A DNA stretch of 64,000 nt from Arthrobacter gandavensis (lineage in GTDB: Bacteria; Actinomycetota; Actinomycetes; Actinomycetales; Micrococcaceae): NCBI RefSeq assembly GCF_015355785.1, contig NZ_JADKYW010000005.1, forward strand, positions 589,468-653,467, written 5' to 3'. The translations under genes were made by a program, and so were the position numbers. Positions within the stretch are counted from its first letter, which is position 1, and each line of letters opens with the position of its first letter. Shown in pieces: positions 7,388 through 55,299 of this stretch. Below the pieces are notes generated by a model. That model did no database searches. It was not told where the DNA came from and saw only the letters and a list, made by a program, of their open reading frames with translations.

Positions 7388-7447
7388 ATCGAGATGACAG
7401 AAACTGCCCGTTTGGAGCTCCAAACGGGCAGTTTCTGTCATCTCGAT
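7388..7447. repeat. Dispersed long palindrome, copy 1 (perfect, 30-bp arms)
   Basis: A perfect, loopless 60-nt palindrome centred on GAGCTC at 7417/7418. The arm begins ATCGAGATGACAGAAACTGC and continues CCGTTTGGAG. It lies between the convergent Lrp and DUF6480-like genes, 20 bases after one stop and 17 bases from the other. Four relatives occur in this window. There is no T-tract on either side, so it is not a textbook intrinsic terminator, though bidirectional termination is possible. Confidence 0.95.
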
Positions 7448-7463
7448 TGAGGTTGAGGGGACG

Positions 7464-7727
7464 CTAGTTCTCGTCGTGCCCCTGATCCATGCTCATCTGA
7501 TCCTCAGCAGGAGGGGTCTCTCCCGGCGGAACTCCGCCGCCGGGCTCAAGGCCGGTGATGTTGCCTTCAGCCGGATCAGGATTCACCCGACGGCCCTTCT
7601 CACCGCTTCCGGCGTGGTTGCCGGTACCCTCCTGGGTATCGGGCCCCTTCTGCGCGGCAGCGTGGTCAGCTTCCTTGGGCTTGTCCGGATTGGCTGGGTC
7701 ATTGTTCGGATCGTAGCTTTGCGTCAT
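7464..7727 (-). CDS. Small hydrophilic protein, DUF6480-like
   Basis: An 87-residue, very polar protein rich in Asp, Glu, Pro, Gly and Asn, with no membrane segment and probably disordered. The C-terminal stretch ITGLEPGGGVPPGETPPAE resembles the short actinobacterial DUF6480 family as I remember it. Members often carry a membrane segment after this motif, but here the protein ends at DQGHDEN without one. GAAAGG precedes the ATG at a good distance, supporting a real gene. It is convergent with the Lrp gene. No biochemical role can be assigned; a stress-related function is only a guess. Confidence 0.6.
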   Translation of the reverse strand: MTQSYDPNNDPANPDKPKEADHAAAQKGPDTQEGTGNHAGSGEKGRRVNPDPAEGNITGLEPGGGVPPGETPPAEDQMSMDQGHDEN

Positions 7728-7821
7728 CGTGGCCTTTCGGTGATGTCCCGCAAGGGAGGAAACATTTAGTCAGCATGCTGATATTTCCAACCTAGCGGGA
7801 CTACAGGCTGAGGAGCAATCC

Positions 7822-9057
7822 CTAGGTAAAGAGCCCCTCCCCCACGAATCCGCCCTCCGCTGCGCCCGGCGGAACGGCAAATACGGCCGATCCGATCGGC
7901 GTCGTCCATTCGTTGAGCAGGTCCAGCTTGTCCAGCCGCTGCTGGATCGGCACGAATTGACGGGCCACATCCGCCTGGTAGGCCACGAAGATCAGCCCGG
8001 CATTGGAGACGCCGCCGCCAGGTTCCGGAGCTGCGTCATAGTTGTAGCCGCGGCGGAAGATCCGCCGGCGCGGATCATCGGGCCGGGCACGCCGCATGTG
8101 GGCGTACTCCGGGATGACCTTGAAGCCCAGCCCTGTGACGGCGTCGAATTCCGGTTCGTCCCGTTCGGATTCACCGGTGAGCGGAGCCCCGTTGTCCAGC
8201 CGGCGGCCCACCGATTCTTCCCTGCCGCGGCGGTCGAGCTCGTCCCAGGTGTCCAGGTTCATGGCGATCCGCCGGACCACCATCGAGGTGCCGCCTTCCA
8301 GCCACGCCGGGATCTCTGCGTCTCCCCAGACCACCCGGTCGAATTCGGGGCTTCCGGGCAGCGCGTTCGCACTGCCGTCCACCTGCCCGAAATGGTTCCG
8401 CATGGTGGTGCCGGCTTTTTCGCTGCCGTAGGCGCGCCGGAAGCCCGGCTGCACCCAGCGCACGACGGCGAATGCCCGGCTGTCCTTGAGCAGCATCCGC
8501 TGGGCGTGGGCCAGCGTCATCGGATCGTCGGCGCACAGCTGGAGCACCAGGTCGCCGCCGCTCCAGCGCTCTTCCAGCCTGTCGACGCCGAAGGCGGGCA
8601 GCGGAGCCAGCCAGGCCGGGGTCTTTTCCGGGGCGGCGGCTGCCAGCAGCCCGGGCCCGAATCCGAAGGTCACCGTCAGCCGTGCCGGGTTCCGGGCCAG
8701 CTCCGGCTCGGTGTCTGCCAGCGCGGGTTCACCCTGGGTCAGCGCGGCGGCGTCATCGCTCAGCATCCGAAGCCAGGACCGGATGCGGTCCCGGCCAATG
8801 CCGTCGAGCAGGTCCAGGGCGACGAAAGCAGCGTATGCGCCGGGCTGCGTGGCTATCCCGGCCTGGTGCCGCCCGTAGAACGGAACCGTCCGGCGGCCGT
8901 TGCTGCCGGACTGATCCAAGCCCGTGCGTTCCAGCTCCGACCCACTGCTGCCGACCAGATGGCCGCCGGCAGCCGCAACCGCTCCCAGGCCCGCTGCGGC
9001 ACCGCCGAAGAGCAGCCGCCGCCGCTCCACTCCCCGAGGCGGGGTTTCAATGCCCAT
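7822..9057 (-). CDS. Tat-exported DyP-type heme peroxidase (EfeB-like)
   Basis: A 411-residue dye-decolorising peroxidase. The N terminus carries a twin-arginine signal (RRRLLFGGAAAGLGAVAAAGG), indicating export in folded form. The DyP signature GxxDG is present as GQVDGS, with the proximal heme histidine likely in EYAHMRRARPD and the distal arginine in RRIFRRGYNY. DyP/EfeB enzymes oxidise dyes, phenolics or porphyrins with peroxide, and some act in heme or ferrous iron uptake. It is the last gene of a four-gene set; its ATG overlaps the stop of the PCuAC lipoprotein gene (TGATG), so translation is coupled. The copper-chaperone neighbours suggest a cell-surface metal or redox role. No EfeU or EfeO gene is adjacent. 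Confidence 0.9.
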   Translation of the reverse strand: MGIETPPRGVERRRLLFGGAAAGLGAVAAAGGHLVGSSGSELERTGLDQSGSNGRRTVPFYGRHQAGIATQPGAYAAFVALDLLDGIGRDRIRSWLRMLSDDAAALTQGEPALADTEPELARNPARLTVTFGFGPGLLAAAAPEKTPAWLAPLPAFGVDRLEERWSGGDLVLQLCADDPMTLAHAQRMLLKDSRAFAVVRWVQPGFRRAYGSEKAGTTMRNHFGQVDGSANALPGSPEFDRVVWGDAEIPAWLEGGTSMVVRRIAMNLDTWDELDRRGREESVGRRLDNGAPLTGESERDEPEFDAVTGLGFKVIPEYAHMRRARPDDPRRRIFRRGYNYDAAPEPGGGVSNAGLIFVAYQADVARQFVPIQQRLDKLDLLNEWTTPIGSAVFAVPPGAAEGGFVGEGLFT

Positions 9058-9707
9058 CAGTGGTCCGCGGTTCCACGGGTTTCAATCCCGTGGGTTTCAG
9101 TCCCGTGGGTTTCAGTCCCGTGGGTTTCAGTCCCGTGGGTTTCAGTCCCGTGCGATTCGGATCCGTGCGATTCGGATCCGTGGCCCCCGGCGTCGTGGCC
9201 TTCACCGGATCCGTAACTTTCGTTTCCGCCGGCAAAGTCCTTGGCCACGGCGTCGACATCCAGTGTGGAGCCGTCAGCCAGCTCCAGGGTGATCGTCACG
9301 GTGTCTCCGGCGAGCAGTCCGTCCGTGAGGCCCATCAGCATCAGGTGGCTGGCTCCGGGCTCCAGGAGGTACCCGCTTCCGGCGGGGACAACGAACCCGC
9401 CTTCGATTTCGCGCATGACCATCGCGCCGGCGTCGTCCATTGCCACTTCATGCAGCTCCACCGCAGAGGCCGCGGATGAACTGGCGGAGACGACGGTGAG
9501 GTCCTCGTCGCCGGTGTTTTCGAGCGTGCCGAAGGCGCCGGTCATCCCGCCGGCTTCCGCGGCTTTGGCCCATGCTCCGGTCATGGACAGCGCGGCGGCG
9601 TCATCCGGGGCAGGGGCCGTTTCGGCAGCGGGGCTGGACGAGCCGCAGCCGGTGAGGGCTGCCGCGGAGACGGCGAGGACGGCTGCGGCAAGGGTGAACT
9701 TCTTCAT
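9057..9707 (-). CDS. PCuAC-type copper chaperone lipoprotein with His-rich repeat tail
   Basis: A 216-residue lipoprotein: signal peptide with lipobox LTGC (Cys at about 20), then a PCuAC/DUF461 domain. The copper motif is visible as H-x3-M...M...H-L-M: ELHEVAM, AMVMREI and ASHLMLMGL. Proteins of this family hand Cu(I) to the CuA site of cytochrome oxidase or to other periplasmic partners. The unusual part is the last ~40 residues: seven tandem His-Gly-Ser/Thr-Glu-Ser/Thr pentads plus one degenerate unit (RGTAD), preceded by GEGHDAGG, giving a metal-binding tail. Start at 9707 (MKKFTLAAA) gives a proper signal peptide; the longer frame to 9782 does not. It sits between copC and the DyP gene. 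Confidence 0.9.
   Translation of the reverse strand: MKKFTLAAAVLAVSAAALTGCGSSSPAAETAPAPDDAAALSMTGAWAKAAEAGGMTGAFGTLENTGDEDLTVVSASSSAASAVELHEVAMDDAGAMVMREIEGGFVVPAGSGYLLEPGASHLMLMGLTDGLLAGDTVTITLELADGSTLDVDAVAKDFAGGNESYGSGEGHDAGGHGSESHGSESHGTETHGTETHGTETHGTETHGIETRGTADH
9063..9182 (-). repeat. 15-bp tandem repeat encoding H-G-(S/T)-E-(S/T) pentads
   Basis: Eight in-frame 15-base units at the 3' end of the PCuAC gene. On the coding strand two read CACGGATCCGAATCG, four read CACGGGACTGAAACC, one encodes HGIET and the last is degenerate (RGTAD). The four identical central units suggest recent expansion by slippage, so copy number may vary between strains. It is coding and has no spacers. Confidence 0.95.
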
Positions 9708-9839
9708 GGTTTTCGGTACTCCAAAGGTACGGTCCGCGCTGTTGGGCGCGGGAAAGGGAAGGTGCGCACCGCGCCGGAGCACGGCCGCAGGAAGTGCCGC
9801 GGAAAAGCGGCGGTGTTGGTAAGGCGCCGGTTCCGCCGG

Positions 9840-10457
9840 TTAGGCGCTGGTGCCGCGGCGCTTCCTCGTCAGCGTGACGATCACGTACACCAGCACGGCA
9901 ACAACGACGACGCCGGCCGCGGTGAGGACCCAGCCCATGGGGCCGAACGAGGTCCCGTCGGACGCGGTGGCTGCCTCAGGCGACGCGGTTTCGGCGGCGG
10001 CGGCTTCGCTGGCTGCCGGGCTCGCGGCTGCAGTTTCCGGAGCGGCGGTTTCCGCGCCTTCGGATGCGTTCACGGTGAAGCTGAAGGTGCCGGTGATCGG
10101 GTGCCCGTCGCTGGAGACAGCACGCCAATTGACGTTGTAGTCCCCGGCATCCAGGGCGGGGACGGCCAGGGTCAGGGTCTCGCGCGTGAGCACCGGTTCG
10201 GACTCGGCCACGTTGTTCCCGGCGGAGTCTTCGACGATGACCTGGTTGCCCAGGTCCATGAGCTCGGAGCTGAAGACCAGTTCGATCTCGGAGGGAGCGG
10301 CGTCCAGGACGGCACCGTCGGCCGGGTTGGAGGACACAAGTTCATCGTGCGCGTGTGCCGGTGCTGCGAGGAAGAGGACCGCCGCGAAGGCGGCGAGGAG
10401 AGCTGCGGCAAGGAGCGAGGCGCGCGTACGGGCCTGGCGGTAGAAAGTGGTAGGCAT
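9840..10457 (-). CDS. copC: CopC-domain copper-binding membrane-anchored protein
   Basis: A 205-residue exported protein: basic N terminus and hydrophobic core (residues ~13-33, ending AAPAHAH), then a CopC domain of about 95 residues, an Ala/Glu/Pro/Thr-rich linker, one membrane segment (GPMGWVLTAAGVVVVAVLVYVIV) and a basic cytoplasmic tail (TRKRRG). Cleavage after AHA would give a mature protein starting HDELV, the N-terminal His that forms the CopC copper site together with the later SSDGHP motif; both are seen here. The upstream extension to 10718 has no family similarity. CopC proteins bind Cu(II) outside the membrane. It lies between the His-rich membrane protein and PCuAC genes. Confidence 0.9.
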   Translation of the reverse strand: MPTTFYRQARTRASLLAAALLAAFAAVLFLAAPAHAHDELVSSNPADGAVLDAAPSEIELVFSSELMDLGNQVIVEDSAGNNVAESEPVLTRETLTLAVPALDAGDYNVNWRAVSSDGHPITGTFSFTVNASEGAETAAPETAAASPAASEAAAAETASPEAATASDGTSFGPMGWVLTAAGVVVVAVLVYVIVTLTRKRRGTSA

Positions 10458-10512
10458 GACTGCTTTCCGTTCCGGGAAGGAACTGGGATTCGTGTGGGTG
10501 CGCGGAGTGCGC

Positions 10513-11115
10513 CTAGCTGGACACGAATGCAGCAGGTGGGCCCCGGTGACGGAACGCCAGGAGGGGAATGCCGAGGTTCCGCAGTCCAAGGGGGCGCACG
10601 GCCAGGACGGAAGCAATGGCGCGGGGAAGATGCGCGGGACGGAAGAACGGCAGCAGCGCGCCGGGCCGGACGCCAAGGGCCTCGATGAGGCGGATGAGCG
10701 TCCGCTCGCCGTGGGCAAGAATCCACACCGTGGCCACGGCAGCCAAGGCGTGGCTGAGCCACATCAGGAGACCGTGGGCCGGGGCCGTCACTGCGGCCGT
10801 TCCGGTCCCAGCCAGTGAGTGGCCTGCGTGGTGGGCGTGGGCGGAACCTGCGCCCACGGCGGCCGGGGCGGAGCCGAAGCTGAAGATGAGATGGAACAGG
10901 CCCTGGCTGAGCACCACGGCGGTGCTGAGCCTGGGGAGGGAAAGTCCGCGGCCTGCGAGCAGGCAGCTGACCATGCCGGAGACTGCGAGGCAGAAGAGGA
11001 CGAGGGCCGGTGCGGGAGCTGCCCCGCCGCCAAGCACGTGCGACGCAGCAGCGACGGCCGTGGCCGCGAATGCTCCGGCCCAGCCGCGCACCAAGCGTGC
11101 GGCACGCGCTGTCAT
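10513..11115 (-). CDS. Integral membrane protein with His-rich loop, copper-cluster associated
   Basis: A 200-residue protein with about four hydrophobic segments (around 13-27, 36-55, 65-80 and 115-135) and a C-terminal part that is amphipathic or membrane-associated. A loop after the third segment reads AHAHHAGH, a plausible external metal-binding stretch. I do not recognise a named family, but it is the first gene of the set leading into copC, PCuAC and the DyP peroxidase, about 55 bases from copC. A part in copper handling is inferred from that context and the histidines. Confidence 0.7.
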   Translation of the reverse strand: MTARAARLVRGWAGAFAATAVAAASHVLGGGAAPAPALVLFCLAVSGMVSCLLAGRGLSLPRLSTAVVLSQGLFHLIFSFGSAPAAVGAGSAHAHHAGHSLAGTGTAAVTAPAHGLLMWLSHALAAVATVWILAHGERTLIRLIEALGVRPGALLPFFRPAHLPRAIASVLAVRPLGLRNLGIPLLAFRHRGPPAAFVSS

Positions 11116-11203
11116 CGGTCCTCCTCAGGCACCGTGTACCGGGCGGGATCGCAACCGGCCCTGTAATTCTCGCAAAGTTTCGACGCCGTGTCGAATATCC
11201 ACT

Positions 11204-11280
11204 CCCCGTCACCGTCGAGATAGCAGAAACTGCACGTTACAGGGCTGTATCGTGCAGTTTCTGCTATCTCGATGACGGGG
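11204..11280. repeat. Dispersed long palindrome, copy 2 (with outer stem)
   Basis: The core is 11215-11272: 28-base arms (TCGAGATAGCAGAAACTGCA followed by CGTTACAG) with a GG loop and one mismatch. An outer stem CCCCGTCA (11204-11211) / TGACGGGG (11273-11280) extends it, leaving only CCG bulged on the left. It begins right after the paaG stop and lies 89 bases before the next gene. Compared with copies 1 and 3 it has AGCAG/CTGCT in place of GACAG/CTGTC, changed on both arms. Confidence 0.92.
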
Positions 11281-11283
11281 ACG

Positions 11284-12078
11284 CTAGCCCTTGAACACCG
11301 GCTTGCGCTTTTCCTTGAAGGCGGCGAAGCCTTCGGCGTAGTCCCCGGTGCCACACAGCACGCCCTGCGCCTTGTTCTCGTCTTCGACCGAATCCCACAG
11401 GCCCAGGCGGGCCTCGCGGATCTGCGCAACGAGTTCCTTGGACGCGCGGAACGCACCGGTGGCGCCGGAGGCAACGCGGGCAACAGTGGCACGGGTGCTG
11501 TCCAGCAGCTCATCGGCCGGGAAGACCCGGCTGAACAGGCCCGCAGCCACGGCTTCCGTGCCGCTCATCAGGTCCGCCGTGTAAATCAGGTCCAGGGTGC
11601 GGTGTGCACCCAGCCGTTCGGTGAAGAGCCAGTGCCCGCCCGAATCCAGGGTTGCCCCCAGGTTCGCGAACGGCGAGCCGATCTTCGCATTGTCCGCCAC
11701 GTAGACGACATCCGTGGCCACCAGCAGGCCCAGCCCGACGCCGAGGCAGGCGCCCTGCGCTGCGGCGAAGGTGGGTGCCTTGAAGGCTGCCATCTTCTTC
11801 AGCAGCGGGGTTACCAGGTCCCCCAGATAGGCGTACGCGTCGTCATCGGCCGGCACGACGCCGGAGATGTCGCGTCCGGCGCAGAAGGCCCGGCCTTCCC
11901 CGCGCAGCAGGAGGGCCCGCACCCCGGCGGCAGCGGCGTCGTCGTAGGCCCTGGAGAGGTCCGCGAGGGCCTGTTCATCCAGCGAGTTGAGCTTCTGCGG
12001 GGCATTGAGGACAACCTCGGCAACGCCGTCGGCAATACTGAGTTCAACCATGGATTTCGGCTGGTTCTGCTCGTTCAT
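11284..12078 (-). CDS. paaG: Enoyl-CoA hydratase/isomerase family, probable PaaG
   Basis: A 264-residue crotonase-fold enzyme. Crotonase features are GEGRAFCAGRDISG (oxyanion hole region), AAQGACLGVGLGL (second oxyanion glycine), and LGATLDSGG, where an Asp replaces the general-base Glu of true hydratases, as in ring isomerases. PaaG converts ring-1,2-epoxyphenylacetyl-CoA to the oxepin and also isomerises a later dehydroadipyl-CoA intermediate. It lies 14 bases after paaE, at the end of the paaABCDE operon, which supports PaaG over the PaaF role taken by the separate gene near 31.7 kb. The exact step is inferred. Confidence 0.8.
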   Translation of the reverse strand: MNEQNQPKSMVELSIADGVAEVVLNAPQKLNSLDEQALADLSRAYDDAAAAGVRALLLRGEGRAFCAGRDISGVVPADDDAYAYLGDLVTPLLKKMAAFKAPTFAAAQGACLGVGLGLLVATDVVYVADNAKIGSPFANLGATLDSGGHWLFTERLGAHRTLDLIYTADLMSGTEAVAAGLFSRVFPADELLDSTRATVARVASGATGAFRASKELVAQIREARLGLWDSVEDENKAQGVLCGTGDYAEGFAAFKEKRKPVFKG

Positions 12079-12092
12079 CGGTGGCTTCGCTC

Positions 12093-13253: not shown

Positions 13254-13255
13254 GG

Positions 13256-13801: not shown

Positions 13802-13806
13802 AGCTG

Positions 13807-14984: not shown

Positions 14985-14986
14985 GC

Positions 14987-15970: not shown

Positions 15971-16032
15971 AGATGTCACCTCACTGTTTTCCACGGGGCC
16001 GCGGACAGCTCCGCGGAAGTCGTTCGGCCAAT

Positions 16033-19034: not shown

Positions 19035-19078
19035 ACGGCGCAGGCCGGGCATCCCGCGGGATGCCCGGCCTGCGCCGT
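19035..19078. terminator. Bidirectional palindromic terminator
   Basis: A perfect 44-nt palindrome centred at 19056/19057 (arm ACGGCGCAGGCCGGGCATCC then CG), followed by TTTTC on the plus strand. It lies between the convergent oligopeptidase B and DedA genes, just after one stop and two bases before the other, so it probably ends both transcripts. It is unrelated in sequence to the five dispersed palindromes. Confidence 0.8.
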
Positions 19079-22011: not shown

Positions 22012-22650
22012 ATGCCTAGTCCCTCGAGTTCCGCGACATCCCCGTCCTCAGCAGCCGGCAACGGTTCCCGCCGCGGACGCCCTGGCTATGACCAGCAGAC
22101 CGTGCTGAACATCGCCGTCGACGTCTTTAACCGCCACGGCTACGAAGCGACCTCCATGGGCATCCTGGCGGAGAATCTGGGCATCACGAAGTCCGCCATC
22201 TACCACCACGTCCCGTCGAAGGGCGACCTGCTGCGCCTTGCCCTGGAGAACGCGCTGGGCGGACTCGAAGGCGTGCTCGATGATCCCCGGGCTTCCACCG
22301 GGCCGGCCGACGCACGGCTCGAATTCGTGCTGCGCGGAACGATCAGCGTCCTGACCGAGCGCCTGCCCTTCGTCACGCTGCTGCTGCGGCTGCGCGGGAA
22401 CACCGACGTCGAGCGCGATGCCCTTGAACGCCGCCGCCAGTTCGACCGGCGGGTCGCCCGCCTTGTGGACGCCGCGCGCTCCGAAGGTTCGCTGCGCAGC
22501 GACATCGATCCGCGCACCACTACCCGGCTGCTCTTCGGCACCATCAACTCGATTGTCGAGTGGTACAAGCCGGGCGGCCCCATCGGTGCGGAGAAGCTCG
22601 CCGATGACATCATTTCAATGATGTTCGACGGTCTGCACGGCAAACCGTGA
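22012..22650 (+). CDS. paaR: TetR-family repressor of the phenylacetate regulon (PaaR)
   Basis: A 212-residue TetR-family regulator. A Ser/Pro-rich N-terminal tail of ~25 residues precedes the helix-turn-helix (QTVLNIAVDVFNRHGYEATS ... LGITKSAIYHHVPSKGDLL). The C-terminal ligand domain is that of the actinobacterial PaaR type, whose effector is phenylacetyl-CoA. The ATG at 22012 is chosen because the longer frame to 21964 would put a probable operator inside the coding region. It lies right after paaK and is convergent with paaZ across palindrome copy 3. Matching operators precede paaA, paaZ and paaJ. Confidence 0.88.
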   Translation: MPSPSSSATSPSSAAGNGSRRGRPGYDQQTVLNIAVDVFNRHGYEATSMGILAENLGITKSAIYHHVPSKGDLLRLALENALGGLEGVLDDPRASTGPADARLEFVLRGTISVLTERLPFVTLLLRLRGNTDVERDALERRRQFDRRVARLVDAARSEGSLRSDIDPRTTTRLLFGTINSIVEWYKPGGPIGAEKLADDIISMMFDGLHGKP

Positions 22651-22674: not shown

Positions 22675-22736
22675 CATCGAGATGACAGAAACTGCCCGTT
22701 AGAAGCTTCTAACGGGCAGTTTCTGTCATCTCGATG
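22675..22736. repeat. Dispersed long palindrome, copy 3 (perfect, 31-bp arms)
   Basis: A perfect, loopless 62-nt palindrome centred on AAGCTT (22705/22706). Its arm begins CATCGAGATGACAGAAACTG and continues CCCGTTAGAAG; only the innermost bases differ from copy 1, and they differ symmetrically on both arms. It lies between convergent paaR and paaZ, 24 bases from one stop and 12 from the other. Confidence 0.95.
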
Positions 22737-22748: not shown

Positions 22749-24833
22749 CTAGGCGCGCTTCTTCTCCACGAGGGTCAGCACGTCGTACGTCGCCACGATC
22801 TCATCGTTCTGGTTGTGCAGGACGGCATCCCAGGCAACCTCGCCGTACTCGTCGGTCTCACGCGGGGTGATCTTCTTGGCGGTCAGGGTCACGCGGATCG
22901 AATCGCCTGCGGCAACCGGCGTGATGAAGCGCAGGTTCTCCAGTCCGTAGTTGGCCAGTACGGGCCCCGGAGCCGGCTCCACAAAGAGACCTGCACCCCA
23001 GGAAAGCAGCAGGTAGCCGTGCGCCACGATGCCCGGGAAGAACGGGTTCGCCTCGGCAGCTTCCTGGTTGGTGTGGGCGTAGAACGTGTCGCCGGTGCTG
23101 TTCGCGAACGCGGTGATGTCCTCGAGGGTGACCTCGCGCAGCTCGGAGGCCATCGCGTCGCCGATCTTCAGCGTGGCCAGGTCCTTGCGGAACGGGTGCG
23201 TCTCGTCGAAGTTCTGGTCCGCCCCGGTGTGCCAGACGCCGGTGATGGCGGTCAGCATATTCGGCGAACCCTGGATGGCGGTGCGCTGCATGTGGTGCTT
23301 GACGGCGCGGATGCCGCCGAGCTCCTCGCCGCCGCCGGCGCGGCCGGGGCCGCCGTGGACGAGGTGCGGCACGGGCGAGCCGTGGCCGGTGGAGCTGCGG
23401 GCGGTTTCCCGGTTCAGCACGTGCACGCGGCCGTGGTGGCCCGCGATGCCGGTAACAACCCCGCGGACGGTCTCCGGGTCGTTGCTGCAGACGGTGGCAA
23501 CCAGCGAGCCGCCGCCCAGCGCAGCCAGCCGCACGGCGTCGGCCGTATCTTCGTAGCCGACCACCGAGGACACCGGACCGAAAGCCTCCACGGAGTGCAG
23601 TGCCTCAGCCTCGGCGTTGTCCCAGGTCAACAGGATGGGCGCCAGGAAGGCACCCTCTTCGACGACGCCGCGGCTGCCGTCAGCCTGCACGGTTTCCGGG
23701 GCATCCAGGCTGCCGAAGGCGATTCTCGCGCCGGCGTCCAGGAGAGTCTGCACCGAAGAGCGGACGCCGTCGCGCTGCTCTACCGAGGCCAGCGCACCCA
23801 TGGTGACGCCTTCGGCGCGGGGGTCGCCGAGCACCACGCGCTCTTCGATGCGCTTGGCAGCGGCAGCAACGACGTCGTCCACCAGCGCCTTGGGCACAAT
23901 GGCCCGGCGGATGGAAGTGCACTTCTGGCCGGCCTTGACAGTCATTTCGGTGACCAGTGACTTCACGTACGCGTCGAATTCGGGCGTGCCGGGAACAGCG
24001 TCCGGGCCCAGGATGGAGGCGTTGAGCGAGTCGGTCTCGCTGGTGAAGCGCACACCTCCTTCAATGACGTTGGTGTGGTTCTTCAGCTTGTTGGCGGTCG
24101 ACGCCGATCCGGTGAAGGAGACCATGTCCCGGTAGTCGAGGTGGTCCAGCAGGTCCCGGGCGGAGCCGGAGATCAGCTGCAGCGAACCGGCGGGCAGGAT
24201 CCCGGATTCGATCATCATGCGCACCGCGGCTTCGGTGAGGTAGCCGGTGGGAGTTGCGGGCTTCACGATGGTCGGAACGCCGGCGAGGAAGGCCGGGGCG
24301 AACTTCTCCAGCATGCCCCAGACCGGGAAGTTGAAGGCGTTGATCTGCACGGCGACGCCGGGAATGGACGTGTAGACGTGCTCGCCGATGAATGAACCGT
24401 CCTTGGAGAGGACCTCGGGGGTTCCGTCGATCACCACGGTGGAGTTCGGCAGTTCGCGCCGGCCCTTGGAGCCGAAGGTGAACAGCACGCCGATGCCGCC
24501 GTCGATGTCCACGAGGGAGTCGATCTTGGTGGCGCCGGTGCGGGCGGAGATTTCGTAGAGCTCCTTGCGGCGGCCGTTGAGGTACTGGGCCAGCTCCTTC
24601 AGTTTCAGGGCGCGCTGGTGGAACGTGAGCCCGGCCAGTCCGCGGTGGCCCACGGCGCGGGCGTGCTCGATGGCTGCGGCGGTGTCCAGGCCGTCGGTGC
24701 TGACCAGGGCGAGCAGCTCGCCGGTAGAGGCATCCCGGACTTCGGCGGAGCTGGCGGAGGTGTTCTCCGGGGTCCACCATTCGTCCTGGACGAAACTGGG
24801 GACGACTTGCACGTCTATGGCGGTTGAGGTCAT
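22749..24833 (-). CDS. paaZ: Bifunctional oxepin-CoA hydrolase / aldehyde dehydrogenase PaaZ
   Basis: A 694-residue fusion. Residues ~1-530 are an aldehyde dehydrogenase (NFPVWGMLEKFAPAFLAG, FTGSASTANKL, catalytic Cys in GQKCTSIRR); residues ~545-694 are a MaoC-like hotdog hydratase with the catalytic Asp/His in TGDTFYAH and FPGIVAHGYLL. PaaZ opens the oxepin-CoA ring hydrolytically and oxidises the resulting aldehyde to 3-oxo-5,6-dehydrosuberyl-CoA, avoiding a reactive dead end. Start at 24833 (MTSTAIDVQ); the frame extends to 25025 through the operator, which argues against that start. It is a single-gene unit with the best PaaR-like site in the window. Confidence 0.95.
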   Translation of the reverse strand: MTSTAIDVQVVPSFVQDEWWTPENTSASSAEVRDASTGELLALVSTDGLDTAAAIEHARAVGHRGLAGLTFHQRALKLKELAQYLNGRRKELYEISARTGATKIDSLVDIDGGIGVLFTFGSKGRRELPNSTVVIDGTPEVLSKDGSFIGEHVYTSIPGVAVQINAFNFPVWGMLEKFAPAFLAGVPTIVKPATPTGYLTEAAVRMMIESGILPAGSLQLISGSARDLLDHLDYRDMVSFTGSASTANKLKNHTNVIEGGVRFTSETDSLNASILGPDAVPGTPEFDAYVKSLVTEMTVKAGQKCTSIRRAIVPKALVDDVVAAAAKRIEERVVLGDPRAEGVTMGALASVEQRDGVRSSVQTLLDAGARIAFGSLDAPETVQADGSRGVVEEGAFLAPILLTWDNAEAEALHSVEAFGPVSSVVGYEDTADAVRLAALGGGSLVATVCSNDPETVRGVVTGIAGHHGRVHVLNRETARSSTGHGSPVPHLVHGGPGRAGGGEELGGIRAVKHHMQRTAIQGSPNMLTAITGVWHTGADQNFDETHPFRKDLATLKIGDAMASELREVTLEDITAFANSTGDTFYAHTNQEAAEANPFFPGIVAHGYLLLSWGAGLFVEPAPGPVLANYGLENLRFITPVAAGDSIRVTLTAKKITPRETDEYGEVAWDAVLHNQNDEIVATYDVLTLVEKKRA

Positions 24834-27197: not shown

Positions 27198-27418
27198 CCC
27201 AAGCCAGCGGCGCCGGCACGCGCGGGAGGATGTACCAGTGTCCCTGCCACCTGCTAACGTGATCAGTGCTTCACGAGACATGGCCTCCGCACCCGTCAGG
27301 GTACGGAAAAGCTCCGACTGGCCATGCACCAACCCCAATGTTCGGCGGGTGGTTCGGATGACGAAGCGGCCCGCGTCCAACCGGAGCGGGCAAGGACACT
27401 CATCTCGAAGGACACGCT

Positions 27419-27805
27419 GTGATTCCCTCCAGTGACCCGCGCTGCACCGCTTTCTACCCCGGCCATAAGATCCACTGGATCCACGGCGGCCGCCTCATGA
27501 GGTACGACGACTGGACCGACGTCGAGGTCCACGCCGACCCGGAACTGGACCTGATCTGCCTGGTGCTGGACGGGCGGCAGCAGATCATGTGGCACCATGA
27601 TGTTCCGCTGGTGGCCGAGGCGCTTGGCGCAACGCAGGAACAGCCCCAGTGGTGCACCCGGTATTCATCGCTGATGGTTCCCGGCGCCTATGAGGGGCGG
27701 AACCGGAGCTCTTTTTTCTACTTAGCCACCCCTGAGCGGGTGGTTCCCTGCCGCGGCCGGGTTCCGCGGAATGACGTCACCATGCAGGATCACGGTTCTG
27801 CCTGA
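27419..27805 (+). CDS. Small hypothetical protein, unrecognised
   Basis: A 128-residue soluble protein starting at GTG, with GAAGGA six bases upstream. It is rich in aromatic residues and His/Cys (FYPGHKIHWIHGGRLM, MWHHDV, PQWCTRYSS) and ends in a basic segment (CRGRVPRN). No signal peptide or membrane segment. I do not recognise the family. The good ribosome site and balanced composition make it likely real. The histidine and tryptophan content could suit a small metal- or nucleotide-binding protein, but that is speculation. It is convergent with the tyrosine phosphatase gene across palindrome copy 4. Confidence 0.6.
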   Translation: MIPSSDPRCTAFYPGHKIHWIHGGRLMRYDDWTDVEVHADPELDLICLVLDGRQQIMWHHDVPLVAEALGATQEQPQWCTRYSSLMVPGAYEGRNRSSFFYLATPERVVPCRGRVPRNDVTMQDHGSA

Positions 27806-27816: not shown

Positions 27817-27872
27817 CGAGATGGCAGAAACTGCCCGTATGAGCGCTGTAACGTGCAGTTTCTGTCATCTCG
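27817..27872. repeat. Dispersed long palindrome, copy 4 (imperfect)
   Basis: 56 nt centred on AGCGCT (27844/27845). The left arm (CGAGATGGCAGAAACTGCCC...) resembles copies 1 and 3; the right inner arm (TGTAACGTGCAG) resembles copy 2. The arms differ at five positions, so it looks like a decayed or recombined copy. Its right arm contains the stop codon of the phosphatase gene at 27865-27867. Confidence 0.88.
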
Positions 27873-28611
27873 ACGGGGAGTCGAGGAGCCGGGACCGGAG
27901 CCGGGCTAGGGATTCCGCCCCGGCCCCGGCCCGGCGCAGGTAGGCAGCGGCGTCGAGGTCCTGCAGGAAACCGAGCAGCTCGGCTTCGGCAGCGCCGGCA
28001 CGGACTGCCAGCTCGGCGTCGTCCAGCGGACGTTCACGGGGTTGCTGCTGCCTCCGGTGCCAGTCATTGATGCCCGTCAGGGCTGCCCGGTAGTCCGCGG
28101 CGATCTCCTCCTGCGGAACACCGGCCAGGTCCAGCAGCAGTGCCGCCACCAGGCCGGTGCGGTCCCGTCCGGCGGAACAGTGAAGAACGACGCCGCCGGG
28201 CGGGGCATCAGCGACGGCCTGCGCGATCGCCGCGAACTTCTCCGGCCAGCGGCGCAGGTTCTCCGTATAGAACCGCGGCGAGCTCATGTAGGGGCCGGTC
28301 AGTGCGGTGAAGTCCGGATCGTCGGGTTCCTGGGTGGGCAGGTTCAGGAAGCGGATCCCTCGGACTGCCGACGGCGCCACCAAGGGATCAGTATCCCGCC
28401 GGCCAATCTCCGCTGCGTTGCGCAGGTCGACGACGGTACGGACACCGGCGTGGTGCGCCTGCTGCCAGCCGCGGGCAGTCAGCCATTCGGAGCGCCCCAT
28501 TCGGTAAACCCGCCCGGGCTGAATGGGTGCGGTGGCTGCCGGAATTCCGCCGAGGTCCCGCGCATTCGCGGCACCCTCCCAGTCCAGCGTGCGGTTCGGC
28601 CGGTTTCCCAT
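27865..28611 (-). CDS. Tyrosine/dual-specificity protein phosphatase (PtpB-like)
   Basis: A 248-residue phosphatase with the CX5R loop in HCSAGRDRTGLVAAL (Cys nucleophile, Arg) and the N-terminal NARDLGGIP motif typical of the bacterial Y_phosphatase3 family that includes mycobacterial PtpB. It is cytosolic, without a signal peptide. Relatives remove phosphate from tyrosine, serine/threonine or phosphoinositides. The start at 28611 (MGNRPNRTLDWEGA) fits the family; the frame can be extended to 28683. The last codons, including the stop, are supplied by the arm of palindrome copy 4. Confidence 0.88.
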   Translation of the reverse strand: MGNRPNRTLDWEGAANARDLGGIPAATAPIQPGRVYRMGRSEWLTARGWQQAHHAGVRTVVDLRNAAEIGRRDTDPLVAPSAVRGIRFLNLPTQEPDDPDFTALTGPYMSSPRFYTENLRRWPEKFAAIAQAVADAPPGGVVLHCSAGRDRTGLVAALLLDLAGVPQEEIAADYRAALTGINDWHRRQQQPRERPLDDAELAVRAGAAEAELLGFLQDLDAAAYLRRAGAGAESLARLRSRLLDSPSR

Positions 28612-38286: not shown

Positions 38287-38330
38287 AATGATTGCGGGGC
38301 AGCTGCTACAGCAGCTGCCCCGCAATCATT
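38287..38330. terminator. Bidirectional terminator between iclR and hydratase genes
   Basis: Perfect 20-bp arms, AATGATTGCGGGGCAGCTGC and its complement, with a TACA loop. It lies five bases after the IclR stop and one base from the stop of the convergent hydratase gene. The minus-strand stem is flanked by A-rich sequence giving a short T run. Confidence 0.85.
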
Positions 38331-49273: not shown

Positions 49274-52200
49274 CAGTAGCTCACCTCCTGCGAGCGCCGG
49301 CGGACCACGGAAACAATGTCCCGCTGGTTGCCCGTGGGGCCCAGGTAGTTGAAGGCCCAGGACAGCTGGGCATAGCCGCCGACCATGTGGCTGGGTTTGA
49401 CCAGGATCCGCGTGACCGAGTTGTGGATGCCGCCGCGCCGCCCGGTGGCCTCGGACTTCGGGGTATCGATGATGCGTTCCTGGGCGTGGTGCACGTAGAC
49501 CACCCCGGCGGGCATGCGGCTGGAGACGATGGCCCGGCCAACAAGCACGCCGTTGGTGTTTACGCACTCCACCCAGTCGTTGTCCGCCACCTGGATCAGC
49601 TCCGCGTCCTGCGGACTCATCCACACCGCGGTGCCGCCCCGGGAAAGTGAGAGCATGAACAGGTTGTCCTGGTACTCGGAATGGATGGACCACTTGTTGT
49701 GCGGAGTCAGGTACCGCACTGCAACGGACAGTTCGCCCCGGGTGCCCAGCTTGGGCTCACCGAAGAGCCGGTGCATGTCAAGCGGCGGCCGGAACACCGG
49801 CAGCGCCTCGCCCATGTCCCGGATCCAGTCATGATCCAGGAAGAAATGCATCCGCCCAGTGAGCGTATGGAACGGCTTGAGCCGTTCAATGTTGATGGTG
49901 AACGGGGCGTAGCGCCGGCCGCCGGACTCCGAACCGGACCACTCCGGGGAGGTGATCACCGGCGTCGGACGGTCCTGGGTGTCGCGGAAGGTGATGAGCT
50001 TGTCCTCGGCGCCGGCGGCCAGGTCTGCCAGCGACGTGCCCGTGCGCTGTTCCAGGGTCTCGAAACCCTGGACGGCCAGTTCGCCGTTGGTGGTGCCGGA
50101 GAAGAGCAGGATGGCCTCCGCCATCCGGGCGTCGGTGTCCACTGCGGGCCTGCCGCGGGCAGCACCGGAGTCGAACACCCCGTGTTTCTGCGCCAGCTGC
50201 CGCACCTGTTTATCCACCCTGTAGGTGACGTGCTTGGTGGTGAATCCCAGCTTTTCGGCCAGCGGGCCCAGGGCAACAAACTTGTCTCCCACGGCCGGAT
50301 AGTCGCGCTCGACGACGGCGAGGGTTGGCATGTTCTTCCCCGGCACCGCCGGGATGTCCGTGTTCTTCCAATCCGGGGCATGGCCGCCGGGCTGCGCGAT
50401 TTCCCCCGGGGTGTCGTGGGTGAGCGCGGTTGCCACCAGGTCCTTGCGGACCCCCAGGTGCACCGCGGCCTGGCGGGAGAACTCCGCGGAGAGCAGGCGG
50501 AACAGTTCGAAGTCCGACTTCGACTCCCACGGCGGCGCAATGGCAGGGGTGAACGCGTGGACGTAGGGATGCATGTCGGTGGAGGAGAGGTCGTATTTTT
50601 CGTACCAGGTGGCGGCCGGGAAAACGACGTCGGAGAGCAGGGTGGAGCTGGTCATCCGGAAGTCCGCGGAGACCAGCAGGTCGAGTTTGCCCTGGGGTGC
50701 TTCCTCGCGCCACACCACGTCTTTGGGCCGGGCATCGCCGTGGTCGGTGCCCAGCACGTTGTTCAGCGTGCCCAGCAGGTGCTTCTGGAAGTACTCCTCG
50801 CCCTTCGCGGAGGAGCCCAGCAGGTTGGAACGCCACAGGATGAGGGTCCGCGGCCAGTTCTCCGGTGCGTCAATGTCCTCCACCGCGAAGCGCAGCCGAC
50901 CGTCCTTCAGGCGGTCTGCCACCCAGCGTGCCGGGGTGCCGGCTTCGCCGCGTTCGACGCCGGCCGCGGCCTCATCTGCAACGTCCAGGGAATTCTTCGC
51001 ATCAAACTGCGGGAAGAACGGCATCCAGCCCATCCGGGTGGACTTGGCAATCACGTCAGCGGAGTGCATGCCGCGCAGGTGGCCTTCCGCCAGCGGGGAC
51101 TGCACCCCGTCCGTGGAGTAGCCGTCGGACCGGAACTGGTCCGTGTGCATGTACCAGAACGCGGTGCCGATCATGAAGCGCGGCGGCCGGTTCCAGTCCC
51201 CGGCGGAGGCCATGGCGGCCCACCCCGTGATGGGGCGGCATTTCTCCTGCCCCACATAGTGCGCCCAGCCGCCGCCGTTGCGTCCCTCGCACCCGGTGAG
51301 CATCAGCATTGCCAGGATGGCCCGGTAGGTGACGTCCCCGTGGTACCACTGGCAGATCCCGGCGCCCAGGATGATCATGGACCGGCCTCGGGACTTCTCC
51401 GCGTTCGCCGCGAAGTCCCGGGCGGTGCGGATCACCGCGGAGGGTTGAACGGAAGTCAGTTCCTCCTGCCACGCCGGAGTGCAGGCGGTGGCGGCGTCGT
51501 CGTATCCGGCCGCCCAGTCCCCCGGCAGGCCGTCCCGTCCCACCCCGTACTGCGCCAGCATCAGGTCGAAGACCGTGGTGACCTTCCATCCGGCTACGTC
51601 CGCGGCCGGAACGCCGCGGTGCACCACGCTGCCGGTGCCGGAGGGATCCGAAAACACGGGCAGGTCAACACCCGATGTTTCTCCCGCCCATCCGGCAGTG
51701 TCCGCAAGCGACAGCGAGGGCACTACCCCCTGCAGGTCGAGGTTCCACTTGCCGGCGTCGTCGTCGTTGTAGCGGAAGCCCAGGGAACCGTTCGGCACCA
51801 CCGGAGCTCCGCTGAACCGGTCCACCAGGACGGTCTTGAAGGCGGCGTCCGCCGCCTGCGCGCTCTCTCCGCCAAGGTCCCGTGCGGTCAGGAACTTGCC
51901 CGGAACGGTGGTGCCGCCCGGCCCGTCCACCAGGGTGACGAGGAACGGCAGGTCCGTGTACTGCAGCACGTAGTCCTCAAATAACGGCACGCGCCGGTCC
52001 ACGAAGTTCTCCTTCAGGATCACGTGCCCCATGGCCATCGCCATCGCCGCATCGGACCCGGCCTGGACCGGCAGCCACTCGTCGGCGAACTTGGTGTTGT
52101 CCGCATAGTCCGGGCTCACGGAGACCACCTTGGTGCCGCGGTAGCGCCCTTCCACCATCCAGTGCGCGTCCGGCGTGCGGGTCACCGGTATGTTGGAGCC

Positions 52201-52998
52201 CCACATCATCAGGTAGGTCGCGTCCCACCAGTCCCCTGACTCCGGTACATCCGTCTGGTCGCCGAAGACCTGCGGGGAGGCCACCGGAAGGTCCGCGTAC
52301 CAGTCGTAGAAGCTGTTCATCACCCCGCCGATCAGGTTGATGAACCGGGCCCCGGCAGCATGGGAAACCATGGACATGGCCGGGATCGGGGAGAACCCGG
52401 TGCAGCGGTCCGGGCCAAAGTTCTTGATCGTGCAAACGTGCGCCGCCGCCGTCATCTCCAGTGCTTCCTGCCAGCTGGAGCGCACGAGCCCGCCCTTGCC
52501 CCGCGCCTGCTGCCAGGTGCGGCGCTTCGCGGGATCGTCCACCAGCGCTTCCCAGGCCAGCACCGGATCTCCGCCGGACGAACGTTTGGCTTCCCGGTAC
52601 ATTTCCAGCAGCACCCCCCTGATGTAGGGGTAGCGCACCCGGGTGGGCGAATAGGTGTACCAGGAGAACGCGGCGCCGCGCGGGCAGCCGCGGGGTTCGT
52701 ACTCGGGCCGGTCCGGGCCCACCGTGGGGTAGTCGGTTTCCTGCGCTTCCCAGGTGATGATCCCGTCCTTGACGTAGACCTTCCAGGAGCAGGAACCGGT
52801 GCAGTTCACCCCGTGGGTGGAGCGGACCACCTTGTCATGGCTCCACCGGTTCCGGTAGAACGCATCACCTTTCCGCCCGCCTTCACGGAAGACTGCACGG
52901 CGGTCGGCCGTCTCATCCCAGCGGGTGAAGAACCTGCCGAGTTTTAGGAGTGCGTCGGAAGCGGGGCCGTCTGTCCCCGTCACGGAGCTGGAAGCCAT
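49273..52998 (-). CDS. narG: Respiratory nitrate reductase alpha subunit (molybdoenzyme)
   Basis: A 1241-residue catalytic subunit carrying bis-MGD and an FS0 iron-sulfur cluster. The N-terminal FS0 motif is HGVNCTGSCSWKVYVK (His ligand plus Cys), followed by WEAQETDYP and YEPRGCPRGAAFSWY. GGVMNSFYDWYADLP contains the Asp region that ligates Mo, and GADVFPAATWYEKYDLSSTDMHP-type elements occur further on (VVFPAATWYEKYDLSS). It reduces nitrate to nitrite with menaquinol electrons. No Tat signal is seen, consistent with cytoplasmic NarG. First gene of narGHJIK; divergent from menB. Confidence 0.96.
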   Translation of the reverse strand: MASSSVTGTDGPASDALLKLGRFFTRWDETADRRAVFREGGRKGDAFYRNRWSHDKVVRSTHGVNCTGSCSWKVYVKDGIITWEAQETDYPTVGPDRPEYEPRGCPRGAAFSWYTYSPTRVRYPYIRGVLLEMYREAKRSSGGDPVLAWEALVDDPAKRRTWQQARGKGGLVRSSWQEALEMTAAAHVCTIKNFGPDRCTGFSPIPAMSMVSHAAGARFINLIGGVMNSFYDWYADLPVASPQVFGDQTDVPESGDWWDATYLMMWGSNIPVTRTPDAHWMVEGRYRGTKVVSVSPDYADNTKFADEWLPVQAGSDAAMAMAMGHVILKENFVDRRVPLFEDYVLQYTDLPFLVTLVDGPGGTTVPGKFLTARDLGGESAQAADAAFKTVLVDRFSGAPVVPNGSLGFRYNDDDAGKWNLDLQGVVPSLSLADTAGWAGETSGVDLPVFSDPSGTGSVVHRGVPAADVAGWKVTTVFDLMLAQYGVGRDGLPGDWAAGYDDAATACTPAWQEELTSVQPSAVIRTARDFAANAEKSRGRSMIILGAGICQWYHGDVTYRAILAMLMLTGCEGRNGGGWAHYVGQEKCRPITGWAAMASAGDWNRPPRFMIGTAFWYMHTDQFRSDGYSTDGVQSPLAEGHLRGMHSADVIAKSTRMGWMPFFPQFDAKNSLDVADEAAAGVERGEAGTPARWVADRLKDGRLRFAVEDIDAPENWPRTLILWRSNLLGSSAKGEEYFQKHLLGTLNNVLGTDHGDARPKDVVWREEAPQGKLDLLVSADFRMTSSTLLSDVVFPAATWYEKYDLSSTDMHPYVHAFTPAIAPPWESKSDFELFRLLSAEFSRQAAVHLGVRKDLVATALTHDTPGEIAQPGGHAPDWKNTDIPAVPGKNMPTLAVVERDYPAVGDKFVALGPLAEKLGFTTKHVTYRVDKQVRQLAQKHGVFDSGAARGRPAVDTDARMAEAILLFSGTTNGELAVQGFETLEQRTGTSLADLAAGAEDKLITFRDTQDRPTPVITSPEWSGSESGGRRYAPFTINIERLKPFHTLTGRMHFFLDHDWIRDMGEALPVFRPPLDMHRLFGEPKLGTRGELSVAVRYLTPHNKWSIHSEYQDNLFMLSLSRGGTAVWMSPQDAELIQVADNDWVECVNTNGVLVGRAIVSSRMPAGVVYVHHAQERIIDTPKSEATGRRGGIHNSVTRILVKPSHMVGGYAQLSWAFNYLGPTGNQRDIVSVVRRRSQEVSY

Positions 52999-53124
52999 TT
53001 ACTCAAGCTACGCGCCGCCTCCCGGGGCGGACAGCATGCTGATGGATTCCCGTTCCGGGCGGGCGAAGAAGCCGCCCCCGGCGTCCCCTCGGACCGGGTT
53101 TTACTGCCGCGATAAACTCGATGC

Positions 53125-54078
53125 GTGAGCACACAACTTCCCGAGCAGGTCTCTGACATCTTCGATCCCATGCAGTGGAGGGTGGTTGGCGGCTTCGACG
53201 ACTTCACTGACATGACCTACCACCGCCAGGTGGAGCGCGACGCCGACGGCGCCGTCGTGCGCGACCTGCCCACGGTACGGATCGCCTTCAACCGCCCCGA
53301 GGTTCGCAACGCGTTCCGTCCGGGCACCGTGGACGAGCTCTACCGCGCCATGGACCATGCGCGGATGACCCCGGACGTTGCCACCGTCCTGCTCACCGGA
53401 AACGGCCCCTCGCCCAAGGACGGCGGGCATTCGTTCTGTTCCGGTGGAGACCAGCGGATCCGCGGCCGGGACGGGTACCGGTACGCCGATGGGGAGACCC
53501 GGGAAACCATTGATCCGGCACGCGCCGGCCGGCTGCACATCCTGGAAGTACAGCGGCTGATGCGGACCATGCCCAAGGTGGTCATCGCCGTCGTGAACGG
53601 CTGGGCTGCCGGCGGCGGGCACAGCCTGCACGTGGTCTCGGACCTGACCATCGCCTCCCGCCAGCACGGAAAGTTCAAGCAGACCGACGCCACCGTGGGC
53701 AGCTTCGACGCAGGCTACGGCTCAGCCCTGCTGGCCCGTCAGATCGGCCAGAAGCGGGCGCGGGAGATCTTCTTCCTGGCCCGCGAATACTCTGCCGAGG
53801 ACATGGTGGCCATGGGCGCCGTCAACGAAGCGGTGGACCATGACAACCTGGAGAAGACGGCCCTCGAATATGCCGCGGACATCGCCCGGCAGTCCCCGCA
53901 GGCCATCCGCATGCTCAAGTTCGCCTTCAACCTGGCCGACGACGGCCTGGCCGGCCAGCAGGTCTTCGCCGGTGAAGCCACCCGGCTGGCGTACATGACG
54001 GATGAGGCGGTGGAAGGCAAGGAAGCGTTCCTGGCGAAACGGGACCCGGACTGGTCCAACTTCCCCTACTACTTCTAG
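53125..54078 (+). CDS. menB: 1,4-Dihydroxy-2-naphthoyl-CoA synthase
   Basis: A 317-residue crotonase-fold enzyme of menaquinone synthesis. MenB hallmarks are FNRPEVRNAFRPGTVDELY, SFCSGGDQRIRGRDGY, VVNGWAAGGGHSLHVV and the Asp/Tyr-rich TVGSFDAGYGSALLARQ; the C terminus AKRDPDWSNFPYYF is very typical. It closes the second ring from O-succinylbenzoyl-CoA. Starts at GTG 53125 and is divergent from narG with 126 bases between. Followed by menE seven bases later. Confidence 0.95.
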   Translation: MSTQLPEQVSDIFDPMQWRVVGGFDDFTDMTYHRQVERDADGAVVRDLPTVRIAFNRPEVRNAFRPGTVDELYRAMDHARMTPDVATVLLTGNGPSPKDGGHSFCSGGDQRIRGRDGYRYADGETRETIDPARAGRLHILEVQRLMRTMPKVVIAVVNGWAAGGGHSLHVVSDLTIASRQHGKFKQTDATVGSFDAGYGSALLARQIGQKRAREIFFLAREYSAEDMVAMGAVNEAVDHDNLEKTALEYAADIARQSPQAIRMLKFAFNLADDGLAGQQVFAGEATRLAYMTDEAVEGKEAFLAKRDPDWSNFPYYF

Positions 54079-54084
54079 GACGTC

Positions 54085-55221
54085 ATGGAACTGCTGCCCG
54101 TCCACACGCCGTCCGGTTTCAACGCCGGGGACCTGCTGCCTCCGCTTGCCGCGGCGCTGGCCGGGGAAGGCCCCGCCGTTGCCCCGCATGCGGATCCCGC
54201 GCAGACCTTCACCGGCGAACTGCCCAATGACGACGTCGCACTGGTGATCAGCACCTCCGGGTCCACCGGGACACCCAAGCAGACCATGCTCAGCACCGAT
54301 GCCCTGGCGGCCTCCTCCATGGCCACCGCCATGCACCTGGGCCAGGACGGCCAGTGGCTGCTGGCCCTGCCGGTGCACTACATTGCCGGCGTGCAGGTGC
54401 TGGTGAGGTCGCTCTACGCCGGAACCGAACCGGTGCTTCTGGATACAAGCGGGCCCTTCAGCCCCGAAGCGTTCACCTCCGCCGCGCAGGCCATGACCGA
54501 CCGGACCCGGCTCACCTCCCTGGTTCCCACCCAGCTGCATCGCCTGCTCACCGATCCGGCACCGGACACACTGTCGGTGCTGCGGAGGTTCGACACCATC
54601 CTGCTCGGCGGCGCGGCTGCCAGTCCGGCCCTGTTGGCGCAGGCGAAGGACTCCGGCCTTCAGGTGGTGCGCACCTACGGCATGAGCGAGACCGCCGGAG
54701 GCTGCGTGTACGACGGCGTTCCGCTTCCCGGCGTCGAGGTGCAGGAGGACCAGGGCCGGCTCTGGATCGCCGGCGACATGCTGGCCGAAGGCTACCTTGG
54801 CGCTCCCGAACTGAGCGCCGAGAGGTTTCCCTTCCGTTCCGGGAAGCGCTGGTTCCGCACTGATGACACCGGTTCGGTGTCCGGGGACGGCACCGTCTCG
54901 GTGACAGGCCGGCTCGACGACGTGATCGTCACCGGAGGCGTGAAGGTCTCTGGCGCGGCAGTAGCGGCTGCCGCCGAACAGCTTCCCGAGGTGCACCAGG
55001 CGGTGGCCATGGGACTCGATGACCTGGAGTGGGGCGCTGTCGTGGGAATCGTCGTCGTCGGTTCCGTGGACACGGGCCGGCTGCGCAGCGCTGTCCGCTC
55101 CGCACTCGGAGCCCCCGCAGTACCCAAGGTAGTGGTTGAGCTGGAGCGGCTGCCCCTGCTGCCGGGCGGCAAGACCGACCGGCTGGCCGTACGCCAGCTG
55201 CTGGCCGCCGCCCGCGGTTAG
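54085..55221 (+). CDS. menE: O-succinylbenzoate-CoA ligase, short form
   Basis: A 378-residue adenylate-forming ligase. The ATP loop is ISTSGSTGTPKQTML; ALPVHYIAGVQVLVRSL, YGMSETAGGCVYDG and the C-terminal GRLDDVIVTGGVKVSG with the catalytic Lys in LPGGKTDRL follow. It is shorter at the N terminus than typical acyl-CoA synthetases, which is usual for actinobacterial MenE. It activates O-succinylbenzoate for MenB. Only six bases separate it from menB. Confidence 0.93.
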   Translation: MELLPVHTPSGFNAGDLLPPLAAALAGEGPAVAPHADPAQTFTGELPNDDVALVISTSGSTGTPKQTMLSTDALAASSMATAMHLGQDGQWLLALPVHYIAGVQVLVRSLYAGTEPVLLDTSGPFSPEAFTSAAQAMTDRTRLTSLVPTQLHRLLTDPAPDTLSVLRRFDTILLGGAAASPALLAQAKDSGLQVVRTYGMSETAGGCVYDGVPLPGVEVQEDQGRLWIAGDMLAEGYLGAPELSAERFPFRSGKRWFRTDDTGSVSGDGTVSVTGRLDDVIVTGGVKVSGAAVAAAAEQLPEVHQAVAMGLDDLEWGAVVGIVVVGSVDTGRLRSAVRSALGAPAVPKVVVELERLPLLPGGKTDRLAVRQLLAAARG

Positions 55222-55243
55222 GCCACCTCCCCCTCTCCCCCAT

Positions 55244-55299
55244 CGAGATAGCAGAAAGTGCACGTCTCAGCGCTGAGACGTGCAGTTTCTGCTATCTCG
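55244..55299. repeat. Dispersed long palindrome, copy 5
   Basis: 56 nt centred on AGCGCT-type bases (55271/55272), with 28-bp arms (CGAGATAGCAGAAAGTGCAC then GTCTCAGC) and a single mismatch. It shares the AGCAG/CTGCT and CACG/CGTG variants of copy 2 but has its own inner bases. It lies 22 bases after the menE stop and 109 bases before the menA start, in tandem rather than convergent genes. Confidence 0.93.

Follow-up and report, generated by a model that had tools for sequence, protein, structure and literature searches.

Bidirectional intrinsic terminators between convergent genes are a known class, and miniature inverted-repeat transposable elements (MITEs) are known as non-coding inverted repeats that occur in many copies. 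Repetitive extragenic palindromes (REPs) and REPINs, with their RAYT transposases, are described in the available text of two papers as short, palindromic, extragenic and restricted to some species (PMC3116915; PMC3733652), and template switching that equalises the arms of hairpins has been described for RNA genes, as far as the available text goes (PMC8794818). Here we describe a palindrome found in five copies in a 64,000-nucleotide stretch of the Arthrobacter gandavensis genome (contig NZ_JADKYW010000005.1, positions 589,468 to 653,467; hereafter the window). It is a palindrome of nearly fixed length with covarying arms; several species have tens of copies in each genome, mostly located just after stop codons. 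We lean, with some reserve, towards regarding it as a REP-like repeat dispersed in Arthrobacter genomes, a 56-bp palindrome that would serve as a two-way hairpin at mRNA 3′ ends, as suggested by its sequence and placement.

Fifty-five copies from three subfamilies align without gaps over 56 columns, and single terminators of unrelated origin were rejected as an explanation on this ground. The subfamilies are distinguished by the inner arm, which is CAGAAACTGC in T1, CAGTTACGGC in T2 and CAGAAAGTGC in T3, and these also align with one another ungapped. Across the alignment, 20 of the 28 stem pairs show two-sided changes and 90.5% of cells pair (again 20 pairs, and 90.7% of cells, when one row with two typing errors is left out), with a covariation of 0.377 for true partners compared to 0.030–0.094 for slid partners. 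Sequence from four species (G000, G010, G001 and G018), 1.664 Mb in total, was scanned with tolerance for length, using a matrix trained on the 55-row alignment and stretches partly picked where copies were known. Of the 39 copies recovered, 36 are exactly 56 nt and the others 57, 60 and 64 nt. The lowest-scoring real copy reached 25 whilst reversed sequence never scored above 0, so a chance origin was rejected as well. The preliminary description of the window had taken the unit to be an arm followed by 4–8 copy-specific bases; this has to be corrected to a common 56-bp core, which in the five window copies is CGAGATNNCAGAAACTGCNCGT-N12-ACGNGCAGTTTCTGNNATCTCG with few departures. One T2 copy, G000:C8:86539 (in L160), is 64 nt long with an asymmetrically expanded centre, and its G010 ortholog is 56 nt.

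The covariance-model search proposed in the preliminary description was built on the 55 copies, with no more than 150 candidates being scored in any genome and both strands counted. It gave 148 matches over the two strands of the window's own genome (3.37 Mb), equivalent to around 74 sites, and the five copies first noticed therefore belong to a large family and are not its only members. Among 29 genomes of the genus the family is rich in five, intermediate in three and sparse or absent in 21, with at least one match in 25. Genomes G001, G004, G010 and G014 gave 122 to 150 matches, G018, G003 and G002 gave 73, 59 and 32 respectively, and the other 21 gave 0–18 each. The first four are also the best matches to the window's own genome with each of three query proteins. 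In that genome the exact 18-nt T1 arm has 70 matches, all 70 inside palindromes, and 43 palindromes were listed among those holding it, 41 of 56 nt and two of 57 nt. The CAGTTACGGC pattern, allowing up to three mismatches, has 40 matches there, some of which are possibly T1, as T1 matches in G001 and G004 show. The CAGAAAGTGC subfamily is the usual type in the stretches of G018, G003 and G002.

A pattern scan returned at least 90 stretches, and the organisms among the matches listed (80 titles) are Arthrobacter koreensis, A. citreus, A. sp. Edens01 and A. pullicola. The pattern CAGAAANTGC-N14..26-GCANTTTCTG is present in 18 of 395 genomes of the bacterial family, eight of them outside the genus with one putative copy each, six of the eight having a 20-nt spacing. 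Outside the family, 2 of 361 genomes of the order match, neither with the 20-nt spacing, and an order-wide element was rejected for this reason. Single palindromes in other genera, L214:10067 (G065) and L215:10704 (G036), are 56 nt long and carry CAGAAAGTGC at the same spacing, with outer arms that differ. No description of this palindrome family turned up in searches of an open-access literature collection, which does not cover subscription journals. In the available text of PMC12306157 Arthrobacter appears as A. livingstonensis, in one table row of counts, and the word Arthrobacter was not found in PMC3733652 or PMC2267715.

Of the 39 scanned copies, 22 have convergent neighbours, 15 co-directional and two divergent ones, and none is inside a gene; all gaps of 70 nt or more between genes in the same 1.664 Mb number 90, 412 and 200 respectively (Fisher tests: convergent enrichment, p = 8e-10; divergent depletion, p = 7e-4). 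A larger set, partly pattern-selected, contains 83 convergent, 53 co-directional and eight divergent placements among 144 copies, these being what is left of 173 after removing 29 with short flanks (173 at the lower scan threshold, 172 at the higher). The stop codon is 5–30 nt from the element on 131 of the 166 sides of convergent copies and in 32 of the 53 co-directional copies, so that a stable hairpin lies shortly 3′ of a stop codon, as is expected of intrinsic terminators. Among gaps of 20–600 nt, a hairpin scoring at least 14, with the family included, is present in 34 of the 70 convergent ones, in 33 of the 263 co-directional ones and in 1 of the 90 divergent ones.

Within the window, an inverted-repeat search and folding recovered the five palindromes of the preliminary description, the perfection of copies 1 and 3, and the paired GA/TC and AG/CT differences between copies. 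The five are the longest among 12 inverted repeats (arms of at least 16 nt, no more than 60 nt apart), and folded as RNA their two strands reach −40.5 to −61.8 kcal/mol (z −5.3 to −13.4); for no copy did any of 200 shuffles fold as well. As first described, three lie between convergent genes and none between divergent genes; the other two are 3′ of a co-directional gene, gene positions being those of our own simple gene caller. Copy 1 (7388–7447, core 7390–7445) is a perfect 60-nt T1 palindrome between convergent genes 6919–7368(+) and 7822–9057(−), and copy 3 (22675–22736, core 22678–22733) a perfect 62-nt T1 palindrome between convergent genes 22102–22650(+) and 22749–24833(−). Copy 4 (27817–27872), also T1, is imperfect with 23 of 28 pairs; its convergent neighbours are 27419–27805(+) and 27865–28611(−), and it runs 8 nt into the called end of the latter. 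The co-directional copies are copy 2 (T1; 11204–11280, core 11216–11271), 3′ of 11284–12078(−), and copy 5 (55244–55299), 3′ of 54085–55221(+). Copy 2 has 27 of 28 pairs and a 2-nt loop at 11215–11272, with an outward extension that includes a small bulge, and copy 5 has 27 of 28 pairs, with one T3-like arm and one T1 arm. At the gathering threshold of an Rfam search of the window the palindromes match no RNA family, the sole match being a SAM-IV riboswitch (RF00634, 49.6 bits) at 27269–27402(+), just 5′ of the small called gene 27419–27805 that has copy 4 at its 3′ end. Another two hairpins, nearly without a loop and unrelated in sequence, with 22- and 21-bp stems, lie between convergent genes at 19035–19078 and 38287–38330, and around 370 nt between copy 1 and the next gene (7448–7821) contain no called gene.

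Orthologous copies were grouped into 44 clusters by similarity of both flanks. Over 135 comparisons of at least 75% identity there are 107 two-sided stem changes, against a mean of 47.1 and a maximum of 67 in 2000 permutations, the ortholog pairs behind this count being non-independent. Identity over 134 comparisons is 93% in the core, 72% in the 20-nt flanks, 59% for unrelated flanks and 86% in distal, mostly coding DNA, with the core figure inflated by fetching with exact T1 words. The comparisons below 75% identity, 17 in seven clusters, consist of 11 of T1 with T3, two of T1 with T2 and four others. Both arms are changed in subfamily switches at orthologous sites, as between L173 (T1) and L195 (T2), and between L011/L141 (T1) and L198/L203/L206 (T3). 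Among all 173 copies, in which T2 and T3 are under-represented as loci were fetched via exact T1 words, T1 never faces T2 (only nine copies are T2 on both arms), T1 faces T3 in five (these types differ at one position used) and T2 or T3 faces an unclassed arm in three. At one locus L103 has the consensus on both arms, L106 has CGAACATAC on both, and L031 and L123 combine the two, a pattern to be expected if one arm is copied onto the other or if conversion affects a single arm; from their sequences these hybrid and like arms look like steps of arm correction. The best reading of these comparisons is that the arms would be kept alike by selection and/or arm-to-arm copying.

At given gene ends the element is present in some genomes and absent from others. 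Of the 12 copies in 400 kb of G010, three are missing from G000; in the other direction, each of the nine copies in 400 kb of G000 has its counterpart in G010. The junctions are not clean insertions, with the extra DNA including the C-rich or G-rich flank. In the slot after 22749–24833, which holds copy 3, five of the 28 genomes carry the element (as T2 in G001 and as T1 in the other four), and an unrelated hairpin scoring at least 13 within the first 300 nt is present in seven, that of G007 lying 117 nt off with a different neighbour; the 29th genome, having a weak paralog only, was dropped. For the co-directional slots hairpins were sought within 150 nt. After 54085–55221 (copy 5) the element is present in 4 of 29 genomes, as T2 in G001, and is absent in the rich genome G014, and after 11284–12078 (copy 2) it is present in 4 of 28 and absent in the rich genome G001, with G022 dropped for having a partial match only. 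At the one convergent slot, then, the element occupies a place where other genomes have a hairpin, and at the two co-directional slots it does not.

In the reading that we favour, RNA from either side would fold into the same ~26-bp hairpin soon after the stop codon. As the same hairpin would form on both strands, one element could close both messages and limit run-through into the opposing gene. Of the bidirectional terminator without a T-tract that the preliminary description had offered, the position and the alternation with unrelated hairpins at one slot are upheld, and the function is predicted. NusG and Rho have known roles at this step, and 3′ stems are known to block exonucleases; since there is no clear U-tract, the element would probably stall RNA polymerase with factors such as NusG/Rho, or its 3′ stem would block exonucleases. 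The 10–20 nt outside the palindrome are rich in C to its left and in G to its right, and the C-rich, G-poor stretch that thus precedes the hairpin in either direction would be suited to Rho. These flanks had been thought to extend the stem, and folding does pair some flank bases, with bulges, but they are mainly a compositional skew, with in-register pairing little above that of shuffled flanks (inverted 3-mers in 40 of 173 copies, 32.8 expected). Copies would have spread via some mechanism, with template switching, or conversion templated by other copies, making their arms equal again, and such re-equalisation would explain the two-armed subfamily changes at orthologous sites.

Several observations weigh against a two-way 3′-end hairpin. 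The 8 nt after the hairpin are 49% G and 22% T, with no clear U-tract, and at least four T in 8 nt occur on 22 of 219 sides, compared to 19 of 66 for other hairpins (at least five T are equally rare, on 8 of 219 family sides and in 2 of 66 other hairpins). The flank skew is present on both sides of co-directional copies too, including downstream, something that a one-strand RNA function does not require. Nor is G·U favoured over A·C on the transcribed strand of the 53 co-directional copies (40 against 34, p = 0.56). Divergent placement was called for 8 of 144 and 2 of 39 copies; short open frames end near the element in three of the eight, and no tRNA genes were found at the loci of divergent copies (10 loci). 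At the copy 3 slot 16 of 28 genomes have neither the element nor an unrelated hairpin, although the gap is just 19–33 nt in nine of these, and the best hairpin scores of the other genomes at the copy 5 and copy 2 slots are 9 and 11, which suggests that those genes do without a strong hairpin. One-sided stem changes between orthologs (307) exceed the two-sided ones (107), and 62 of the latter pair in each of the two species compared; the earlier claim of pairing maintained or regenerated has support in the excess of two-sided changes over permutations. Finally, position-specific conservation in the arms exceeds the needs of a plain hairpin, and a binding protein, a copying enzyme or a recent common origin may lie behind this constraint.

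It is possible, though unlikely, that the palindrome is instead a selfish miniature mobile element (REPIN- or MITE-like), moved in trans by some transposase, with gene ends merely tolerated and no role. The uneven distribution over the genus would agree with this, as would the G010 copies missing at the orthologous place in G000, though with unclean junctions, the presence of the element in four genomes at each co-directional slot where relatives are without a strong hairpin, its rarity in divergent gaps, and the lack of any copy seen inside a gene. The Y1 transposase family (PF01797, E 0.001), however, which would include the TnpA-REP type suggested for these palindromes, was found neither in the window's own genome (0/1) nor in any of the 29 genus genomes, in a search that matched 5 of 14 control genomes and left other transposase families outside its range. 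No solitary exact T1 arm was found in the own genome, so that no insertion sequence with exact T1 ends was seen there; the search covered exact T1 arms in this one genome, and neither T2 or T3 arms nor diverged ones. Direct repeats of at least 3 nt, as expected of target duplication, are absent from all 173 copies, and 2-nt direct repeats (62, against 44.6 when shuffled) cannot be told from palindrome pairing, AT/AT being self-complementary. The T1 composite had no match in plasmid and phage collections (E 0.01), nor did two exact patterns in viral contigs, and a distance of mostly 5–30 nt from stop codons is tight for random tolerated insertion. Near 346 ends, GTAG occurs 0 times and its complement five times, and CGTC 12 times and its complement three times, which is no systematic REP tag. 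The REP-like mobile palindrome of the preliminary description is thus retained as a dispersed repeat that is unevenly distributed, but one for which neither a RAYT nor a GTAG/CGTC tag nor a target duplication of at least 3 nt was found.

A site for a sequence-specific double-stranded DNA-binding protein, composed of two 22-nt half-sites at fixed spacing and acting as a two-way roadblock, insulator or nucleoid-organising site, is a more doubtful proposal. It would account for the near-constancy of the 56-bp length, for the C-rich and G-rich flanks on both sides whatever the transcription direction, and for the lack of G·U preference. In the 78 arms of the scanned copies, positions 9, 10, 14, 17 and 18 are invariant across subfamilies and 1, 11 and 22 nearly so, whilst 7, 8 and 19 vary and 6, 12, 13 and 16 depend on the subfamily, which also suits such a site; among the 173 copies, conservation of positions 9–18 and 20–22 is inflated by the fetching of loci via exact T1 words. 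The variable central 12 nt, on the other hand, also tend to pair and change on both sides, something that a free-centred DNA site would not need, and T1 and T2 coexist in one genome despite several core differences. Still less probable is a dedicated system, in which a protein recognising the 56-bp two-fold site would make a two-way boundary between convergent genes and couple recognition to the copying and homogenising of sites; if it existed, diverging lineages would come to differ in site type, on both arms together, at many loci. Paired words resembling DNA-uptake signals, which the available text of PMC2267715 reports to form terminators, would agree with the conserved 10-nt word that is found at gene ends as inverted pairs, but are scarcely credible here and largely refuted, as the exact T1 arm never stands alone in the own genome and all nine exact GCAGTTTCTG matches in the window are inside elements.

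What the family offers is a natural set of dozens of related gene-end hairpins, with slots that are empty, occupied or type-switched across species. This allows testing of how convergent transcripts end without an obvious U-tract, and of whether long stems owe their lasting pairing in nature to template switching.

Compared to described systems, the Arthrobacter element shares with MITEs a non-coding nature, an inverted repeat and many copies, but a parental insertion sequence with exact T1 ends was not seen in its own genome, nor a target duplication of at least 3 nt. With bidirectional intrinsic terminators it has in common its position, a strong symmetric hairpin and alternation with other hairpins at one slot, and it differs from these in lacking a clear U-tract, in being G-rich downstream, and in being one sequence family occurring many times per genome. 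As a dispersed extragenic palindrome in tens of copies or more it resembles REPs and REPINs, which in the available text of PMC3116915 and PMC3733652 are likewise short, many-copied, limited to some species and mostly found between convergent or co-directional genes. Its 56-bp core without an unpaired loop is, however, longer than the 20–40 bp given for REPs in the same text, there is no RAYT and no GTAG or systematic CGTC end tag, and two-armed subfamily changes are seen at orthologous loci. Those two-sided changes of stem arms, and the multi-base arm replacement at the locus of L031, L106 and L123, are in turn shared with the hairpins maintained by template switching in the available text of PMC8794818; there the hairpins belong to RNA genes, whereas in Arthrobacter they form a dispersed palindrome family.

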